A stretch of DNA of 21,531 nt from a virus, in the IMG/VR virus record IMGVR_UViG_3300040815_001340, positions 1 to 21,531 of that record. The stretch is one strand, 5' to 3'. Positions 1,757 to 21,088 of the stretch are shown here, piece after piece. The notes beneath the pieces are model-generated. The model was not told the DNA's origin and made no database searches. It worked only from the letters and a program-made list of their open reading frames with translations. Within the stretch, counting starts at the first letter, position 1; every line of letters starts with the position of its first letter. The translations under genes were made by a program, and so were the position numbers.

Positions 1757-2290
1757 TTAATTCTCCAAGTATGCATTAAACTTTTTGATTATTCTTTTAG
1801 CTTTTCCACCATCCATAAATTCTTCAGGGTATTTTCTTCTAAGCCATTCTGAAAAAGTTTCAATTTTAATCTCAGAATACTCACCTAGCCTTTTTGGAAG
1901 GTCTCTAAGTAACTGTCTGTACTCTATATACTTTTTTCTATCAGCTTGTTCTACTTTAACATCAGGTAAAAATAACCAATCAGTTTTGCAAAGTATATGG
2001 TTACGTTCTTTACGAAGCCTATCCATTTTATTTTCACGATCATGTAAAGCTTCATCAATATATTCAACTTCATACTCAGCAGGAAGTTCTTGTTTTAAAA
2101 GTTTAACTCCCATTGGACCGTCAACTTCTTCTAATAACTTAGCTCCTTCAATTTTGTTAGGAGTAGTTATAATTTGAGAATCCTTACCTTTAGCCTTATG
2201 GTTTTTTACCCATTCCTCAGCTTCTTGTTTTGAATCAAATGACCCTGAGAATATAGCTCCGTCTTTACGGGTTAATATAACCCGGATCAT
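1757..2290 (-). CDS. Tail-fibre assembly chaperone-like protein
   Basis: A 177-aa protein. Residues about 88-140 read RKERNHILCKTDWLFLPD, then a tract ending YRQLLRDLPKRLG. The pattern R-N-x-L-L-x-x-(S/T)-D-W ... W/Y-x-x-Y-R-Q-x-L-R-D-L-P is the signature of phage tail-fibre assembly proteins (caudovirus tail assembly type), which help fibres fold and attach and are normally encoded just downstream of the fibre they serve. Here the ATG overlaps the stop of the 697-aa fibre by one base, exactly that arrangement. The N-terminal 60 residues look like a small alpha/beta domain (MIRVILTRKDGAIFSGSFDS), and the C terminus is helical and basic. Confident about family resemblance, less about which fibre is the client. 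Confidence 0.75.
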   Translation of the reverse strand: MIRVILTRKDGAIFSGSFDSKQEAEEWVKNHKAKGKDSQIITTPNKIEGAKLLEEVDGPMGVKLLKQELPAEYEVEYIDEALHDRENKMDRLRKERNHILCKTDWLFLPDVKVEQADRKKYIEYRQLLRDLPKRLGEYSEIKIETFSEWLRRKYPEEFMDGGKAKRIIKKFNAYLEN

Positions 2291-4383
2291 TATTTAATCC
2301 TATGTATAGAGAAGAAATTTCTAGTCCCATCTGTATATGCTGTTGTACTAACAGAGGAAAACCCGTTTATAGCTACAGTCTGATCTTTGTTTAAATATAA
2401 AGTTGTACTTATACTAGGCTCAACTGTAGAAGCAGCCCCTGATCCGTGTAAGGATTTATAGGAATGTAGAGAACCATCTACATGTAATCTTATCTGCATT
2501 ACTTGTGCTGTAGATAGATTTACAGATGCCCCTATTTGAGCAGATATATTGTACCAACCAGAGACAGGTATTGTATATGTTCCAGCCGACATAGCATTAT
2601 GAGAATCTGCCTCTAAATCTTCAAAATCAAATATAGATACAGATGAGTTAACTGTCTGACCACTATTACTAGTATACCTCGCAGCGACAGTCTCAGTCTC
2701 TAGAATTGTTTGTGGTGAAGATCTTTTTGCTATTGAAATTCTATGTAATTGAGGAGCACTTGAATTTAAAGTTCTATTCTGATCCATTCTCAAGCTTAGA
2801 ACTTGCCCCTTGCTTAAGGGCACTGATATAAAGTCGCCATTAGGAAATTCAGTTGAAGCTTCAGCTACATTGGCATAATTAGTTGCAACACCGTCTATGT
2901 AAAGTCTAAAAGTACCTTGTATTGCTGTTGTATACCTTAATGAATAATGTACATCATAGTAACCAGTTTCAGGACAAGTGAATTGATCACCATCCCAAGA
3001 AGAAGTTGTATCCTCAATTTCAGTAGTGCCAAATGGTATATTAGTTGTGTTGCCAGTTAATACCTGTGCCGAGTTACCATATGCCTGAACAACTACTTCC
3101 CTTCCACCAAGATCCTCGCTGGTTACAGCATTGCTCGACCAACCGACGATAGGTACTCTTATGTCCCATGTTATATTATCCCCAGAACCAGAAGCTACAG
3201 GGTTAGCAGTATCCCAAGCATCTGACCCTTCAGAAAAACCCCAAAATACATTACCAGATGGAACGTATGCACCGCCACCATAATAAGTATTCGCACTGGT
3301 ATCGTTGTAATGAACACTAGAATAAAAGAAACTTTGATTATTGGGATACTTGCTTAAATCTACATTTCCTATATTAGATATATCAATTCTAAATGCACCG
3401 CTTCCTGAACTATATACCCCCTTAACCCTAATGTGAGCGGTATCCCCAACCCTTTTATAAAGACCTGTTAACGAACTATAAGTAACATTGGTGTTGTCAT
3501 TTATTACCGTAAACTCTTTCCAATCAGTCATGGCTGCGCCTTTTACGACCTCTCTCGGACCAACTTGAACATTATCTAATTTAAACTGGTAAGAATCATT
3601 AACATTCATTGCTTTAGCTTGATGAATAACTAATCTATAACTAGTAGAATCTGCAGCAGTTTGGAATTGTGCAATGTGTGTATTTGAATTAGCGTTAAGT
3701 TTAATATTCTCACCATTAACTCTAATTAACTTATCATTAGTAATATCATAAACATATACTCTAAAGAATTCATCATCAGCGGCAGTTAATGAACTATCAT
3801 CAATTAAATAGTCAAAAGATATTGTAAGTTTCTTAGCTTTATCTGCAGCATCAATATTAAAGTCATAATAAACACCATGACCTTGCATATCTTCAGTACC
3901 TAGTTGATCATCTCCACCAAATACAAAAGATTTAGATCCTCTTAATGGATTAGATGAGTTTACGGCAATTCCTGTCCAGAATATTGCTAAAGACCCACCA
4001 AAATCATCTGGTAATTCACCCGGAGTTGTATTTGCATAGTTACTCCAACCATCAGCATTTACTTCAGCATCTGGATTAAGGATGTAATTAATACCAGCAG
4101 ATCCACCGCCAACTTCAGCTAAAGCTCCGTCAAGAACTTGAAACATCTTCTTAGAGTCAGTAGCGTAAACTAATTGACCGTTAGAAGCTGTACTAGCGTA
4201 AGTTTGAAGATTAGCTAGAGTATCTTTCTTAACATCAGATCTAGAAGGATCAATAATTGCAGGAGTTGTAATTGTAGCTCCATCTTGGATTACTGTTGAT
4301 CCATCTAAGGTTTTATTTTGTAATGTTTGAGACTCGTCCAAGTTTACATTGTTTGGAGCCGTTTTTCTTGAGCTAAAACTCAT
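2290..4383 (-). CDS. Large tail fibre with tandem jelly-roll-like receptor-binding modules
   Basis: A 697-aa protein. Residues about 20-94 form an attachment-like module (LQNKTLD ... RSDVKKDTLANLQTYASTA ... EVGGG) also present in the 548-aa fibre. Residues about 98-275 (NYILNPDAEVNADGW onwards) resemble a carbohydrate-binding beta sandwich. A middle module follows to about 415. Two C-terminal modules (about 425-553 and 562-697) share F-x-x-P-x-(S/T)-G-(Y/W)-Y and LYIDG/LHVDG spacing and look like C1q/TNF-type jelly rolls, folds that often form trimeric sugar-binding tips. The start has a GAGG site and overlaps the hydroxylase stop as ATGA; the stop overlaps the chaperone start. A receptor-binding fibre is well supported; domain borders are by eye. 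Confidence 0.85.
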   Translation of the reverse strand: MSFSSRKTAPNNVNLDESQTLQNKTLDGSTVIQDGATITTPAIIDPSRSDVKKDTLANLQTYASTASNGQLVYATDSKKMFQVLDGALAEVGGGSAGINYILNPDAEVNADGWSNYANTTPGELPDDFGGSLAIFWTGIAVNSSNPLRGSKSFVFGGDDQLGTEDMQGHGVYYDFNIDAADKAKKLTISFDYLIDDSSLTAADDEFFRVYVYDITNDKLIRVNGENIKLNANSNTHIAQFQTAADSTSYRLVIHQAKAMNVNDSYQFKLDNVQVGPREVVKGAAMTDWKEFTVINDNTNVTYSSLTGLYKRVGDTAHIRVKGVYSSGSGAFRIDISNIGNVDLSKYPNNQSFFYSSVHYNDTSANTYYGGGAYVPSGNVFWGFSEGSDAWDTANPVASGSGDNITWDIRVPIVGWSSNAVTSEDLGGREVVVQAYGNSAQVLTGNTTNIPFGTTEIEDTTSSWDGDQFTCPETGYYDVHYSLRYTTAIQGTFRLYIDGVATNYANVAEASTEFPNGDFISVPLSKGQVLSLRMDQNRTLNSSAPQLHRISIAKRSSPQTILETETVAARYTSNSGQTVNSSVSIFDFEDLEADSHNAMSAGTYTIPVSGWYNISAQIGASVNLSTAQVMQIRLHVDGSLHSYKSLHGSGAASTVEPSISTTLYLNKDQTVAINGFSSVSTTAYTDGTRNFFSIHRIK

Positions 4384-5045
4384 AATATACCTCTTTCCTT
4401 GTTTAGTTTAATTTGTTTTTCCATATAAGGATAAAATTTATTTGGCAGTAATGGTAAATAAGCTTCATATAAATTATTACTATATACGGTTGGAAAATAA
4501 CCTTCTCCGTATGTATGATGTTTAGAATGTAATCCTACTCCTAATGTTAAGGTATTAAATATTTTACCAACAACATTCCAAGACCACCAGTATTTGTTAT
4601 TAGTCCTTTCTTTAAGTGAGTAATGTGACCAATACTCAAATAGTTCCCAATGAAAGGTAAATCCTATTATCATCACTACATAATACCAATCAAAAAAATA
4701 TGTCATAACAATAAAAGTCAATATGTCTAAAGTTATAGATTTCCACCCTGCTAATAACCTTCTTTTTAAATGTGTTCTGTAAAAAAACTTATAAAAACTT
4801 TCATTTGTTCTTGCCCATGAAAAATCGTCAACATTTTCTAAAAATTCATCATGGTGTATTTTATGGAAAGGTTTTAAATACCATCCACATGTTAATATTG
4901 AAGTTATCCAATATACTTTGTTTTTCTTATGTATAGCTTCGTGATGCACACTCATCATGTACGCACCTATAAAAAAACTAAGAATGAAATAAATCACAAA
5001 GAGCCTGCTTGTAAGTTTCTTGTTGAGCCTCTGTTCCAAAGCCAT
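4380..5045 (-). CDS. Integral membrane di-iron hydroxylase/desaturase (AlkB / fatty-acid-desaturase type)
   Basis: A 221-aa membrane protein with the His clusters of membrane-bound non-haem di-iron oxygenases. Numbered from ATG 5043-5045, these are H35-x3-H39 (HHEAIHKK), H61-x2-H64-H65 (HKIHHDE), H132 to H141 (ending EYWSHYSLKER) and H173-x2-H176-H177 (LHSKHHTYGE). The third block resembles the N-Y-x-E-H-Y-G segment of alkane hydroxylases, and a following S-W-N resembles their H-S-W-N. Hydrophobic spans lie at about 15-32, 44-58, 104-131 and 158-170. The known family oxidises alkyl or acyl chains at the membrane; substrate here is unknown and no ferredoxin or rubredoxin is nearby. No good ribosome site precedes 5045; GTG 4995-4997 after AGCAGG is an alternative that keeps the first helix. 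Its stop overlaps the next fibre start (ATGA). Confidence 0.8.
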   Translation of the reverse strand: MALEQRLNKKLTSRLFVIYFILSFFIGAYMMSVHHEAIHKKNKVYWITSILTCGWYLKPFHKIHHDEFLENVDDFSWARTNESFYKFFYRTHLKRRLLAGWKSITLDILTFIVMTYFFDWYYVVMIIGFTFHWELFEYWSHYSLKERTNNKYWWSWNVVGKIFNTLTLGVGLHSKHHTYGEGYFPTVYSNNLYEAYLPLLPNKFYPYMEKQIKLNKERGIL

Positions 5046-5370
5046 AGTGCATATAAAAATTATTTTTACACATATCACTTGTACAAGAGATAACAGCTCC
5101 CATAGGATCTTCGCCTGTCTTTGCTGCAAGAGGGCTTGGAGTATTTGTTATGAACTCATTAATTTTAGATATTACCATAGCTTCCTTAGTAGCATCGCCT
5201 ATCCAATCAGCCCCTCCAAAGAGCCAAGCAACAAAATCCTCGAACTTAAAATCCAAATCATCTCTAACTAAATCAATTAAGCTATCTGTAGTGTACTCAG
5301 TATTCGGATCTACTTTTCCCTTCATCTTGTCACAAAAAATTGCGTCTAAGCTTGAACCTAATCTACTCAT
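4978..5370 (-). CDS. Uncharacterised 130-aa protein between adhesin and hydroxylase genes
   Basis: Starts MSRLGSSLDAIFCDKMKGKV one base after the stop of the glycine-rich gene, and its 3' end overlaps the hydroxylase start by 20-68 bp, depending on which start that gene uses. It is mildly acidic, with four cysteines (C13, then C95, C100 and C125 near the C-terminal half) and a motif FEDFVAWLFGGADWIGD. I do not recognise it. The cysteines and compact size might mean a small folded domain with disulfides or a metal site, but spacing gives no known zinc finger. By position it could be a fibre-associated protein or a partner of the hydroxylase; neither can be shown from sequence. Confidence 0.6.
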   Translation of the reverse strand: MSRLGSSLDAIFCDKMKGKVDPNTEYTTDSLIDLVRDDLDFKFEDFVAWLFGGADWIGDATKEAMVISKINEFITNTPSPLAAKTGEDPMGAVISCTSDMCKNNFYMHYGFGTEAQQETYKQALCDLFHS

Positions 5371-5371
5371 A

Positions 5372-6394
5372 TTATACCACCTGTAATGTTCCAGTTAACC
5401 CAGACTGACCTGCGCCACCGACTAAACCAGTTCTTGTACCACCTGCACCTGCTCCACCTGAACCTCCGGAGCCTCCGGAACCGCCTGATATAGAAGTAGA
5501 GAAAGCATAGCTAGGAGATTCTACAATGACCTTACCACCTGATCCACCAGCACCGCCGCCGCCGCCTCCACCAGAACTGGGCGTTCCTCCTTGACTAAAT
5601 GCTGTACCGCCATTACCTGCGTTAAAGCCATTTGTTCCAGATACATCTATAGAACCAGTACCAATTATTCCTGTAGTAGAGTATATGTAAACCATGCCGC
5701 CATGAAGCCCCTTGTGACCGCCGCCGCCACCACCACTTGAGGCAGATATAGTAATAATTTTACCACCTGAATTGTAGTAGGCACCACCGCCTCCACCAGA
5801 TCCACCACCGGAACCACCGTTACCGCCGACAGTAGAACTACCGTTACCACCATTACTACCAGCAGCATTTGTTACATTTCCAGATCCGCCAGACCCTCCG
5901 GCACCCACACCAGCAGAACCGTTCCCATTATTCGCTCCGCCGTTACCGCCTTTTAGACCATTACTACCGCCACCGCCGCCACCGCCGCCGTAACCATTCG
6001 TACCAGACCCACCTATGCCTCTCTCAGCAAGTGCAGTATACCCACCGTTACCGCCTGTACCGCCTAAGCGTTGAGTAGCTGTATGTGAGTAAGCCGTGCC
6101 TGATACAGCAGTTCCAGAATAAGAGTACCCATTTCTTTCAGTAGCTCTGTATTGGATAGTACCGTTGATAGTACAAGTACCGCATACAAGTATCTGAGCA
6201 AGATCTCCATCACCAGATATGTTAAGTGTACCACCTGCCTGAATATCTACAGATGTATAGTGTTTAGAAAAAGGTGCAGTTAAATTAACAGTCTGACCGT
6301 TAGTGATAACTAAATCACCGTCAGCACCAGTAAACCAAACTGGACAGCTTTCACCTGCTTTTTTATTTACCATTGAAAATGGAAATACTTTCAT
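5372..6394 (-). CDS. Polyglycine-rich adhesin-like appendage protein
   Basis: A 340-aa protein. Residues 1-110 are an ordinary beta-type domain (WFTGADGDLVITNGQTVNLT, ISGDGDLAQILVCGTCTING). The rest is dominated by long glycine runs (several of six to eight Gly) broken by S, N, A and short hydrophobic beta stretches such as KIITISASSG, MVYIYST and KVIVESPS. Such glycine tracts form polyglycine II helix bundles in the T-even/S16 gp38 adhesins, where distal loops bind the receptor. Similar Gly-rich proteins are frequent in marine phage tail loci. The ATG overlaps the stop of the upstream fibre (TAATG). Composition is GC-richer than its neighbours because of GGN codons. Adhesin role is inferred from composition and place. 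Confidence 0.75.
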   Translation of the reverse strand: MKVFPFSMVNKKAGESCPVWFTGADGDLVITNGQTVNLTAPFSKHYTSVDIQAGGTLNISGDGDLAQILVCGTCTINGTIQYRATERNGYSYSGTAVSGTAYSHTATQRLGGTGGNGGYTALAERGIGGSGTNGYGGGGGGGGSNGLKGGNGGANNGNGSAGVGAGGSGGSGNVTNAAGSNGGNGSSTVGGNGGSGGGSGGGGGAYYNSGGKIITISASSGGGGGGHKGLHGGMVYIYSTTGIIGTGSIDVSGTNGFNAGNGGTAFSQGGTPSSGGGGGGGAGGSGGKVIVESPSYAFSTSISGGSGGSGGSGGAGAGGTRTGLVGGAGQSGLTGTLQVV

Positions 6395-8040
6395 TAACTA
6401 AGCTCCTTAACTTCTGCAATGTATATACTACCATTAGACTTAACTAAAGTAAATATAGATTCTGTACTTGGTTCTACATTCCCATCATAATTAGGATCTG
6501 TTTTAACTCCTGCTGGCCAAGTTATAGCCTGAGCACTGACATCTGTATTTTCTATAATTATTAATATTGTTTGACCGTCAGAGTCATTTGAAAATGTAAA
6601 TGTTGTAGCAGCAGATATACTTTTATAATATACTCCTTCTAAACTCCAATCAATATCTAAAGCAGTTATGTTATTATTTGGATTACTCTCTACTGTGTCT
6701 AATCTTTCTTCAACTTCGTCAATAGCTTCTTGTACATCTGTAGCTGTAAGACCACTTGAACTATTATCATAAGTAACAGCAGTAGCTGTTGTAACTGGTG
6801 CGATATCTTTAGCTTCCCATCTTGAGTTTCCATTATCATAAATTAATGCTTGTCCATCAGTAGGGGCTGGAACAGAAATATCAGAAAGTTCGTCTAATAG
6901 AATATTATCACCAACAGCATTAGGTCTATAAACTTTAACCTGTAATGTGTTAGCGTCTTCAACATAAAATAATGGGTTCGAGAATCCCGATCCCGGTTCA
7001 GTAGTTGTTGCTAGTCCCGGAGTAGCTTCAGATAAGAAATAGTATTGTCCAATCGTATATCCGTGAGCTGTTGCTTCAATTCTTCCAAAGTCAGCCGCAA
7101 CAAATGTATTTGCATCAACAACTTCAATTACTACATAATAAGCTAGTGTAGCAGCATCATTTGCTTGAGCTTTAACCCAAGTAGTACCATTGTGATAGAT
7201 ACCATCACCAACAGCAAATCCGTGAGAAGCTTGACTAATCTCGAAAGAAGTAGACCCTCCTCCGCCTATTGGCTCAAGTGCGTTATCAATAATCTGATAC
7301 ATTTTTTGAGTATCAGTTGCAAATACGATCTGACCATCATCAGCAGTACTAGCATATGTAATTAAGTTAGCTTCAGTATCTTGTTTTACATCAGATCTCG
7401 TAGGAGTCTCAATAGATCCAGAGATCGTATTTGTTGAATCTAATGTTTTGTTTTGTAAAGTTTCTGAAACAGTCGGTCTTCCGTCCATTTCAGTTTGTAG
7501 CTCATCTAAGGCTCCCTGAACGTCCGTAGCAACTAAGTTACCAGAAGGTACGTTAGTGATTGCAGAAGCCGTATGAGCGTCTGTAACATCTGCTAGGTGG
7601 TCAGAAATACCAGTAGCGTTAGCAGCAGCAGAGTTAGCTACATCATCAACAGCGTCTTGAACATTTGTTCCGGTTACATTAGGGTTAGTATCGTCAAAAG
7701 TGATCTCAGAAGCTTCGTTTTGTCCTTCTAAAGCAGTTTTAACGGCTAATGCTGAAGGAAGTTCAGTATCGGAAGTAGCTGTGCTTATATCGGTTATTAG
7801 AACCCCAGCTTTTAAGTTATCTGTTTCTATATTTGAAATTGTATTGTTGTCTGCATCAATTGTTTTATTTTCTAATGTTTGAGCTTGATCTTCAGTTACG
7901 ATAGATCTCTCAGCACCGTCAACGTATGCTTTAAATTTAAGTGCCGATGGGTCTAATCTTAATTCACCTTCTGCTGCTGTAGCATTGGTAGATCCTTTAA
8001 GTCTGATCCCTTCAATAAATTTTCTTCTCTTAATCGTCAT
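6394..8040 (-). CDS. Tail fibre protein with repeated fibre modules
   Basis: A 548-aa protein with a GGGAG site before its ATG. Near the N terminus is TLENKTIDADNN, and near residues 190-262 TLQNKTLD ... RSDVKQDTEANLITYASTAD ... IGGGG, which is the module also found at the start of the 697-aa fibre. Two short heptad-like units (ATDVQGALDELQTEMD and ATDVQEAIDEVEERLDTVE) look like trimeric coiled-coil segments. A central domain (HGFAVGDGIYHNG ... HGYTIGQYYFLSEATPG ... VYRP) and a C-terminal domain (DIDWSLEGVYYKSIS ... SIYIAEVKE) match patterns common in marine phage fibres. It lies right after the beta-rich 8121-8597 gene in the promoter-led tail unit. Fibre assignment is firm; receptor is unknown. 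Confidence 0.85.
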   Translation of the reverse strand: MTIKRRKFIEGIRLKGSTNATAAEGELRLDPSALKFKAYVDGAERSIVTEDQAQTLENKTIDADNNTISNIETDNLKAGVLITDISTATSDTELPSALAVKTALEGQNEASEITFDDTNPNVTGTNVQDAVDDVANSAAANATGISDHLADVTDAHTASAITNVPSGNLVATDVQGALDELQTEMDGRPTVSETLQNKTLDSTNTISGSIETPTRSDVKQDTEANLITYASTADDGQIVFATDTQKMYQIIDNALEPIGGGGSTSFEISQASHGFAVGDGIYHNGTTWVKAQANDAATLAYYVVIEVVDANTFVAADFGRIEATAHGYTIGQYYFLSEATPGLATTTEPGSGFSNPLFYVEDANTLQVKVYRPNAVGDNILLDELSDISVPAPTDGQALIYDNGNSRWEAKDIAPVTTATAVTYDNSSSGLTATDVQEAIDEVEERLDTVESNPNNNITALDIDWSLEGVYYKSISAATTFTFSNDSDGQTILIIIENTDVSAQAITWPAGVKTDPNYDGNVEPSTESIFTLVKSNGSIYIAEVKELS

Positions 8041-8703: not shown

Positions 8704-8731
8704 AAAAAAAAAGGGAGGTATTGCACCTCCC
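8704..8731 (-). terminator. Strong intrinsic terminator after the major capsid gene
   Basis: On the minus strand GGGAGGT, loop GCAAT, ACCTCCC, then nine T. This is a perfect 7-bp GC-rich stem plus U-run, 22 bases after the capsid stop. It ends or reduces capsid transcription before the tail unit, whose own promoter copy follows. Confidence 0.92.
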
Positions 8732-8752
8732 TGTATTTTAGGTTGCTTAGAA

Positions 8753-13843: not shown

Positions 13844-15322
13844 TTATTTTTTCTTAAGATTTAGCACTTTTCTAAAGAAATCAGTAGCTTCCGATACGTT
13901 TTTATGCTTGAATTTAGGTGACATAAATGTATTTTCATTAATACTTAGACCATAACCAAACGGAAATGGGTTCTTAGATGTCTGTACATTTCTAATAAGA
14001 TAATAAAGAGCAGGAATACCATCAACGTGACCCCCTCTTACAGATTTATCTGGAGTATCTGGCATCCTCTTGAAATCAGTACGTTTATCATTCCACTGAC
14101 CATATTCTAAATGGTATATTAAATGCTTACATCTTTCATGGATTTTAACTCTCCCTTTTGCTACCCACATTCTCATCTCATTAATTGCACCTTGTTTTCC
14201 ATCTTTTCTAGATGTAATAAAGTTCAAATCGTGAAGTAACTTAAGGTCTTGCTGAAGGCCCAAATTAACGTCCATAACTCTTAAATAAGCTTTGTGTTGT
14301 TCCTTTGTTTTTTCGTCATAAAACCTTATTTTTTCTTTAGCTATGATACCTTCTACCAGATCTTGTGTGGTCATAGTAGGGCCGTTCATTACCAGTTCAT
14401 CTATTATAACTAACGTAGCATTTTTAAAATCATAATAGCCAAATAAAGCCACTGTTAAATCTTTGTGACCAATATCCATTCCTACATAAAAATCCCTGAA
14501 ATCAGGTAATTCTGGTGCAGTTTCATCATCAAATATAATATTACCCTTATTCATTGAAAACTCAGGACATATAGTAGTTTCCTCGTCTACAAATACCTGA
14601 CAAAGGTACTCACGCCTAAAATCTGGATCTTCTTTACCTCTAGGATATTCTTCAATAATCTCTTCTATAATATCAGGAGTAAAGTTAGGGTTTTGGTATA
14701 TATCATAAATCCTTAACCTTCCAGAAGCTTTATATGGATTCATAAAGTGCTGAATAAACTCATGTTGAGGGTCTCTAGATGGAGTAGATGCTAGTATCAT
14801 CCTACCTCTAGTTGTACGGATAGTAGGTGATAAAATAGACCTAATGGTATATAGTAAATCGTTTACGAAACCTGCCTCATCAATCAAAACCAGATCTGCT
14901 CTAGTTCCCCTTAAAGATTCTGCAGATAAATCAGATCCACCTAGATGTATTTCAGATCCGTTATGGAATCTATATATCTTATCTTGCGTACTGTAATCAG
15001 GTCTAAGCTCTGCTGGACAAGTTTCGGTAATCTCTCTCATAAGAGGTTGTATAATAGTCTTAGCATCCTTCTGTTTTGGAAGTAAGAACTTTACGATAGA
15101 ATTAGGTTTACTTAGACATTGCTCAAGAGCTAATGTAACCATAAGCCAAGTCTTACCTAACCTTCGACTACATACTATAACACTAGTACGAGTAGTATCG
15201 TTAAATACGCTATTTTTCATGTCCTTTTGAACGTCTGTAAGTAGCCAACTCAACTCTCCCATTTCCCATAGTTTAGCCTGAGCTTCTTCTTTTGACATCT
15301 GCTTTTTGGACTTCTTAGCCAT
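13844..15322 (-). CDS. Terminase large subunit (TerL)
   Basis: A 492-aa protein with both terminase domains. ATPase: Walker A variant CSRRLGKTW at about 51-59, Walker B LVLIDEAG with D148-E149, and coupling motif ILASTP at 176-181. Nuclease (RNase H fold): [15 protein letters not shown] with D283, and a late GGHVDG with D434 before the final helix. TerL motors pump DNA through the portal and cut concatemers. The start overlaps the HNH gene by 8 bp, with a GGGTGG site inside that gene. Lysine-rich ends are usual. Compared with other TerL proteins it is full length and intact. Very sure. Confidence 0.96.
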
Positions 15323-16262: not shown

Positions 16263-16550
16263 CTAAAATACGAATTTACTTTCTTCACGTTTCTTGTTAA
16301 TATCATTAATAGTAAGCTTACCGTAAGACTCATTGATCTTAAGAATCTCTTTTTGCATCTTAACAATTTCATCGTGGAAAATTCTAGTGTAGTCTGGTTG
16401 CTCTTTGTACATCAAATAGTATCTATATCCACATAATCCTGAGATTGCGAATACAATAATTGATTGAGCAATGTTTGGGGAACCGTAGTAAAAGAATGGT
16501 ACAAGTACCAATAGTAGCACAAATGGTAGTGCTTCGATAAATTTATTCAT
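16263..16550 (-). CDS. Small membrane protein with two helices and a cytoplasmic helical tail
   Basis: A 95-aa protein with an AGGAT site. The hydrophobic stretch FVLLLVLVPFFYYG at about 10-23 and a second (SIIVFAISGLCGYRYYLMY) at about 30-48 are joined by a short polar turn. The remaining half is charged and helical (HDEIVKMQKEILKINESYGK). Two membrane helices plus a long charged tail next to the packaging genes recall holins, which are sometimes coded beside terminase genes, but no lysin is nearby. It lies 7 bp before the small terminase gene. Membrane location is clear; a lysis role is only a possibility. Confidence 0.7.
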   Translation of the reverse strand: MNKFIEALPFVLLLVLVPFFYYGSPNIAQSIIVFAISGLCGYRYYLMYKEQPDYTRIFHDEIVKMQKEILKINESYGKLTINDINKKREESKFVF

Positions 16551-20679: not shown

Positions 20680-20903
20680 ACAAACTTAAAATAGATGGGA
20701 TAGTATCACAACAAACATTAGAAAATGCAGAAAAGCTGCTATCTCAACGTGATTTAGAGGTATTAGAACAAAATATAGAATTTTTGATTAGTGAAATGAC
20801 AGCATTACGTCAATGTCAATTAAGCTATGCTGAATCTCTATTAACTAAAGAAATGTTAAAAAAAGGGTATTTACTTGCTTATATAGATTCGGAGGTAGAA
20901 TGA
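20676..20903 (+). CDS. 75-aa helical protein
   Basis: Starts MNKLKIDGIVSQQTLENAEK with an AAAGGAA site and four-base overlaps on both sides. It is nearly all helix and acidic (RDLEVLEQNIEFLISEMTAL). No motif recognised. It sits directly before the lipoprotein gene. Confidence 0.6.
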   Translation: MNKLKIDGIVSQQTLENAEKLLSQRDLEVLEQNIEFLISEMTALRQCQLSYAESLLTKEMLKKGYLLAYIDSEVE

Positions 20904-21088
20904 AAGTATTAATACTAATAGGGCTTATTAGCTTCATATTTGGCTGTAGCAACGCTCCAGTACAGCAACCTGACATATGTTATGGATTACAAGGTGAAGC
21001 GTATGAGGACTGTATATTGAGGCATAGAGAACGTAGTGAGCATAGAGAGCCACCAGAATATGCTAGACCAGCTAGAGATAGAAGATAG
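20900..21088 (+). CDS. Small phage lipoprotein
   Basis: A 62-aa protein with a GGAGG site. MKVLILIGLISFIFGCSNAP is a classical lipoprotein signal: lysine, hydrophobic core, then lipobox I-F-G-C16. The mature part has two further cysteines (DICYGLQGEAYEDCIL) and a basic, proline-containing tail (EPPEYARPARDRR). Phage lipoproteins are known as outer-membrane spanin subunits and as superinfection-exclusion proteins. No inner-membrane spanin partner is visible next to it, so exclusion or envelope modification is at least as likely. Lipidation is well supported, the role is not. Confidence 0.75.
   Translation: MKVLILIGLISFIFGCSNAPVQQPDICYGLQGEAYEDCILRHRERSEHREPPEYARPARDRR

Follow-up and report, generated by a model that had tools for sequence, protein, structure and literature searches.

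A predicted minimal AlkB-derived membrane di-iron enzyme encoded in a fibre-gene cassette shared by two unlike phages

Structures have been solved for AlkB, a bacterial membrane-bound alkane monooxygenase with six transmembrane helices: in the Fontimonas enzyme, FtAlkB, nine histidines from four motifs bind the two irons together with Glu271, and the substrate tunnel opens between helices TM1 and TM2 (PMC10113152). Across the superfamily the spacing of the histidines varies, offset by helix shape, and a glutamate equivalent to Glu271 is absent from other enzymes of the group (PMC10110569). Viral members are known as fatty acid desaturases of cyanophages and of cold-brine phages (vFAD), for which a role in membrane fluidity has been proposed (PMC7300359). 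A precedent of another kind is llp of phage T5, which adjoins the receptor-binding gene and blocks the receptor; the llp of phage BF23 is unrelated and targets that phage's own receptor (PMC4728585, PMC9586334). Searches of the open-access literature gave no description of phage-encoded AlkB-type oxygenases. Here, we describe a short phage enzyme that is predicted to be an AlkB-derived core and whose gene lies among tail-fibre genes.

The stretch of DNA analysed here (the window) is the 21.5-kb virus record IMGVR_UViG_3300040815_001340 (21,531 nt), which codes for a P22-type portal and a large terminase (Pfam). It was compared with a second, 28-kb record, IMGVR_UViG_3300009079_000092 (labels G004 and L002). 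The virion genes of the two phages are unlike, with the P22-type portal in the window and a tape measure gene (PhageMin_Tail) in the second record. The features around the enzyme gene are as follows.

8712..8732, minus strand: terminator-like hairpin, its 9-pair stem followed by 8 T, downstream of the 8753-10015 gene and ahead of the fibre block
6394..8040, minus strand: 548-aa fibre-type protein; PHROG gives weak matches to tail families, the best being tail fibre/baseplate at E 0.002-0.003
5372..6394, minus strand: Gly-rich protein, presumed to be a fibre-tip adhesin; over its first 129 residues 64% identical to its counterpart in the second record
4978..5370, minus strand: 130-aa protein, 40% identical to its partner in the second record; 20-nt overlap with the enzyme gene
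4380..4997, minus strand: predicted minimal AlkB-derived membrane di-iron enzyme, 205 aa, with a PF00487 match and nine His; start placed by comparison with the second record
2290..4383, minus strand: 697-aa fibre-type protein with a BclA_C domain, absent from the second record; its start overlaps the enzyme stop
1757..2290, minus strand: tail fibre assembly chaperone (Phage_tail_APC, E 5.6e-11; PHROG tail fibre assembly, E 9.4e-12)

A preliminary description of this DNA had reported an open reading frame on the minus strand at 4380-5045, and the frame is present, translating to 221 aa from ATG 5045. That start was probably overextended. The most likely start by sequence comparison is GTG 4997, giving 205 aa, because the homologue, of equal length (205 aa), has its ATG at the matching place, preceded by an in-frame stop one codon upstream, and because the DNA similarity between both phages covers 4374-4995. 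The upstream start, disfavoured on both grounds, also lacks a Shine-Dalgarno-like sequence; GTG 4997 has a weak one. With this start the enzyme gene would share 20 nt with the 130-aa gene upstream of it, and at the other end its stop overlaps the start of the 697-aa fibre-type gene in an ATGA at 4380-4383, as had been noticed earlier. The two phage enzymes share 63% protein identity, and comparison of this one pair gives dN 0.245, dS 1.85 (near saturation) and dN/dS of approximately 0.13; the enzyme is maintained by purifying selection.

The window enzyme matches the Pfam family PF00487 (FA_desaturase) at E 4.4e-10 and 40.2 bits, and the second enzyme at 52.2 bits, both above the cut-off of 29.7. 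The profile match to a membrane di-iron family that had been proposed as a check was thus obtained, and the histidine clusters with family spacing that had been read from the letters are there. In 205-aa numbering the His boxes are H19-x3-H23, H45-x2-H48-H49 and H157-x2-H160-H161, kept in both phage proteins, and the third block in order is E118-x2-E121-Y122-x2-H125-Y126. None of 200,000 composition-preserving shuffles contained all four motifs in order. Each of the nine iron-binding histidines of AlkB is aligned with a phage histidine (9/9), whereas the position of Glu271 is Ser124 in both phage proteins and box 2 is one residue shorter than that of AlkB (H-x2-HH versus H-x3-HH). One might speculate that E121, one helix turn ahead of H125, serves as a substitute carboxylate ligand.

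Alignment and modelling give the enzyme one N-terminal hydrophobic helix and two packed ones, corresponding to TM4-TM6 of AlkB and in agreement with the several membrane spans described earlier; TM1-TM3 have no counterpart in the alignment. Since the tunnel mouth of AlkB lies between two of the absent helices, substrate access must differ. A first fold model from a four-sequence alignment reached a pLDDT of 48, and an improved AlphaFold model, with AlkB sequences in its alignment, a pLDDT of 65 and a pTM of 0.62. The latter model gave Z scores of 9.4 to 8F6T, 8.8 to 8SBB and 5.6 to SCD1, and Foldseek returned 8F6T and 8SBB with probabilities of 1.00 and 0.99 but with E values of 0.04 and 0.12; the match to 8F6T runs from residue 120 onward only. 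The model is of modest confidence, and given the AlkB sequences in its alignment the fold match is supporting rather than independent. A BFVD fold search gave no significant match. Together, the identity as a membrane di-iron enzyme is supported by profile and motifs and moderately by the fold evidence. We also considered a split AlkB with its missing half encoded nearby, and rejected it: the only candidate seen, a small membrane ORF at 16263-16550, lies at a distance and outside the shared cassette.

Within the superfamily, several comparisons point to AlkB. A profile built from the two phage proteins (A1) matched weakly in 25 of 398 Pseudomonadota genomes (best E 1.2e-6), and the inspected loci have AlkB-like motifs. 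As a less selected check, PF00487 was searched in 60 Pseudomonadota genomes and the 27 members found were ranked by their A1 score; AlkBs take the first three places (36.8, 28.4 and 17.7 bits), and no other member exceeds 15.3. Against PDB sequences, the sole match of A1 was AlkB 8F6T (E 0.009), and a PDB search with the single enzyme sequence gave chance-level matches only. A tree separated the AlkBs and the phage pair from other desaturases with 91% support; the phage pair sits on a very long branch (2.3), and its sister grouping has 28% support. Hence, in this comparison within Pseudomonadota, placement of the enzyme on the AlkB side of the superfamily, nearest AlkB rather than ordinary desaturases, is supported. 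The earlier assignment as an AlkB/desaturase-type enzyme therefore stands for the membrane di-iron class and the AlkB side, and fails for a full AlkB, given that TM1-TM3 and the Glu ligand are absent; by sequence, the protein is an AlkB-derived core rather than an AlkB.

The gene recurs in the same company. In both phages the predicted proteins follow the same order: fibre tip, Gly-rich protein, 130-aa protein and enzyme. The 548-aa fibre has its last 91 residues in common with the second record (54% identity), which puts the start of the shared cassette within this gene. Past the enzyme the two differ, with a further fibre-type gene in the window and a different small gene in the second record; otherwise the two phages share one weak match (35%, E 3e-7) to fibre-type sequence elsewhere in the second record. 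We presume from its place and its Gly-rich repeats that the Gly-rich protein is an adhesin; it has no family match in Pfam or PHROG and no PDB sequence match. The 130-aa protein likewise has no Pfam match above cut-off and no PDB sequence match. It has conserved cysteines (C13, C96 and C101) and no library match, and the only other IMG/VR record in which it turned up is the second one.

The hairpin at 8712-8732 is the strongest in the region, where the count of such sites is at chance level, as are promoter-like matches. No other minus-strand terminator-like site was seen from 8712 to 1000, and one transcript across the fibre block would be consistent with the hairpin at 8732-8712 and with none further down to 1000. 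The overlapping ends with fibre-type genes bear out the earlier view that the enzyme gene lies within a fibre operon. The view that it is made with late structural proteins holds as far as placement in the fibre block; late co-expression is what the gene overlaps and the absent terminator-like site suggest. A survey of related phages for the gene beside fibres, which had also been proposed, showed the same placement in another phage that is otherwise unrelated (n = 2 phages), and this suggests that the enzyme travels with a host-recognition cassette.

The window terminase (13844-15322) is distant from all GenBank phages, and its best match, a Silvanigrella aquatica phage record at 28% identity, offers a weak hint at the host. 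One small ORF per phage has, by eye, a lipobox-like start of the lipoprotein type (20900-21088 in the window, L002:9484-9738 in the second record), which suggests that the hosts may be Gram-negative.

The enzyme appears to be rare. Peptide- or DNA-pattern scans of IMG/VR, which would miss divergent members, found the gene in just one other record, and its true spread may be wider. With tblastn, the two phage proteins had no match among 50,697 GenBank phage records, and the enzyme had none in PHROGs or PADLOC. Exact peptide patterns across all species genomes hit three Rhodobacterales loci only. Two pattern matches, L007 and L009, were judged to be chance after inspection.

Full-length AlkB-like enzymes are, by comparison, common in IMG/VR, with at least 120 motif-matching stretches, all coding for AlkB-profile proteins (for example L121:7640-8740 and L142:5677-6772). 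Among the matches listed, approximately 97 of the 103 full-length enzymes belong to related clusters whose neighbours are T4-like (terminase, neck and baseplate-type proteins and many 2OG-Fe(II) oxygenases), and carry Gln in place of the first box-3 His. Almost none occur in GenBank phages, and PHROGs has no family for them. By eye, a gene for a phosphate permease-like multi-span membrane protein lies near the AlkB-like gene in two contigs (L142:3619-4576 and L128:3065-4025). A further viral contig codes for a full-length AlkB with an intact HSDHH box (L067:5890-7080); by eye, the same contig has one ORF resembling a release factor and two resembling M16 peptidases. The T4-like viral AlkBs were rejected as a source of the window gene, given profile scores of at most about 22 bits versus 45 for a bacterial AlkB and a separate tree branch.

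Our preferred reading, which we put forward as possible though short of probable, is that of a minimal oxygenase of the AlkB branch that oxidizes lipid chains in the inner membrane, is encoded in a host-recognition cassette and has a receptor-side role. In the scheme that we infer for its activity, topology, timing, donor, substrate and receptor-side role, the enzyme would be co-expressed late with the fibre proteins, and TM4-TM6 with the four-motif His cage would insert in the inner membrane, the cage facing the cytoplasm. Electrons from a host donor would reduce it; as the preliminary description had it, no electron donor gene is apparent nearby, and a scan of the window and of 20.6 kb of the second record gave no CxxC motif pair of the rubredoxin type. 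An O2-dependent hydroxylation or desaturation of an alkyl chain on a membrane-embedded host lipid could then follow. As the alkane-tunnel helices of AlkB are absent, the substrate is more likely to be a bulkier bilayer lipid than an alkane in free form. The altered envelope lipid would be one on which the cognate adhesin or its receptor depends, and infected cells and debris would then bind progeny or kin phages less well. Our model for such company of an envelope-acting gene with an adhesin gene is T5 llp. Release, superinfection block and receptor change had been put forward earlier as candidate roles. A more specific version has the enzyme matched to its adhesin and oxidizing the receptor lipid or its surroundings, such that a cassette swap would also bring a receptor-removing tool; in this strict form we consider it rather unlikely.

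The chief rival, which we regard as unlikely but worth serious weight, is a general auxiliary metabolic gene that changes membrane fluidity during infection, with placement among fibre genes being incidental. Fibre regions of tailed phages do accept insertions, and the enzyme belongs to the same superfamily as the viral desaturases with that proposed role (PMC7300359). However, the profile puts it with AlkB and away from desaturases, and its placement with the same fibre cassette is conserved in two unlike phages. The same conservation bears on the idea of cargo (a moron) that moved along with the cassette by linked recombination, useful in itself and with no functional tie to the adhesin. Fibre modules recombine frequently and the enzyme sits at the end of the shared block, but the overlapping genes and their order were kept despite long divergence (dS near saturation), albeit in two records only, and we judge this reading to be a little less likely again.

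Loss of Glu271 and of TM1-TM3 would suit a non-catalytic protein of AlkB fold whose work is to bind, either metal or a partner in the membrane, as an exclusion protein might. This seems improbable given that all nine iron-binding histidines are kept under purifying selection and that the glutamate is missing in other superfamily enzymes too (PMC10110569). Modification of the virion itself, whether of a fibre protein or of virion-associated lipid, is favoured by the gene company with fibre genes alone and is very improbable: judged by their virion genes, the two phages are of the ordinary tailed kind and give no hint of lipid in the virion, which leaves the earlier suggestion of action on virion lipid without support, and known relatives act on alkyl chains, not on protein.

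If active, the enzyme would be an unusually small AlkB-type oxygenase for which TM4-TM6 and the His cage suffice, and it would be useful for studying substrate choice in the AlkB family. If tied to the adhesin, a lipid-oxidizing enzyme would join the means by which phages exclude rivals and avoid dead-end adsorption of progeny, and would caution against labelling all viral PF00487 genes as membrane-fluidity genes.

Compared with AlkB (8F6T and 8SBB), the phage enzyme has the four His motifs, the nine iron-binding histidines in order and the TM4-TM6 core, as well as the [NE]Y-x2-HY and SWN motifs. AlkB differs in its length of about 370-400 aa versus 205, in having TM1-TM3 and hence its type of tunnel entrance, in Glu271 where the phage enzyme has Ser, in an H-x3-HH rather than H-x2-HH box 2, and in its rubredoxin partner, for which the scan of the phage records gave no motif pair. 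The vFADs (PMC7300359) are likewise phage-coded PF00487 enzymes with His boxes kept, but they have been connected with stearoyl-CoA desaturase, whereas the window enzyme is a shorter protein that falls with AlkB by score and keeps company with a fibre cassette. The T4-like AlkB-like enzymes share the AlkB profile, but are 340-466 aa long, have other neighbours, form a separate branch and carry Gln at the first box-3 position, where the window enzyme keeps His. The locus resembles llp of T5 and BF23 in that a putative envelope-acting gene lies beside a presumed host-recognition gene; Llp is a small receptor-binding lipoprotein of the outer membrane, whereas the phage enzyme is a predicted polytopic membrane protein without a lipobox. 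The enzyme is ordinary for its superfamily, and unusual in its size, its missing parts and its gene company.
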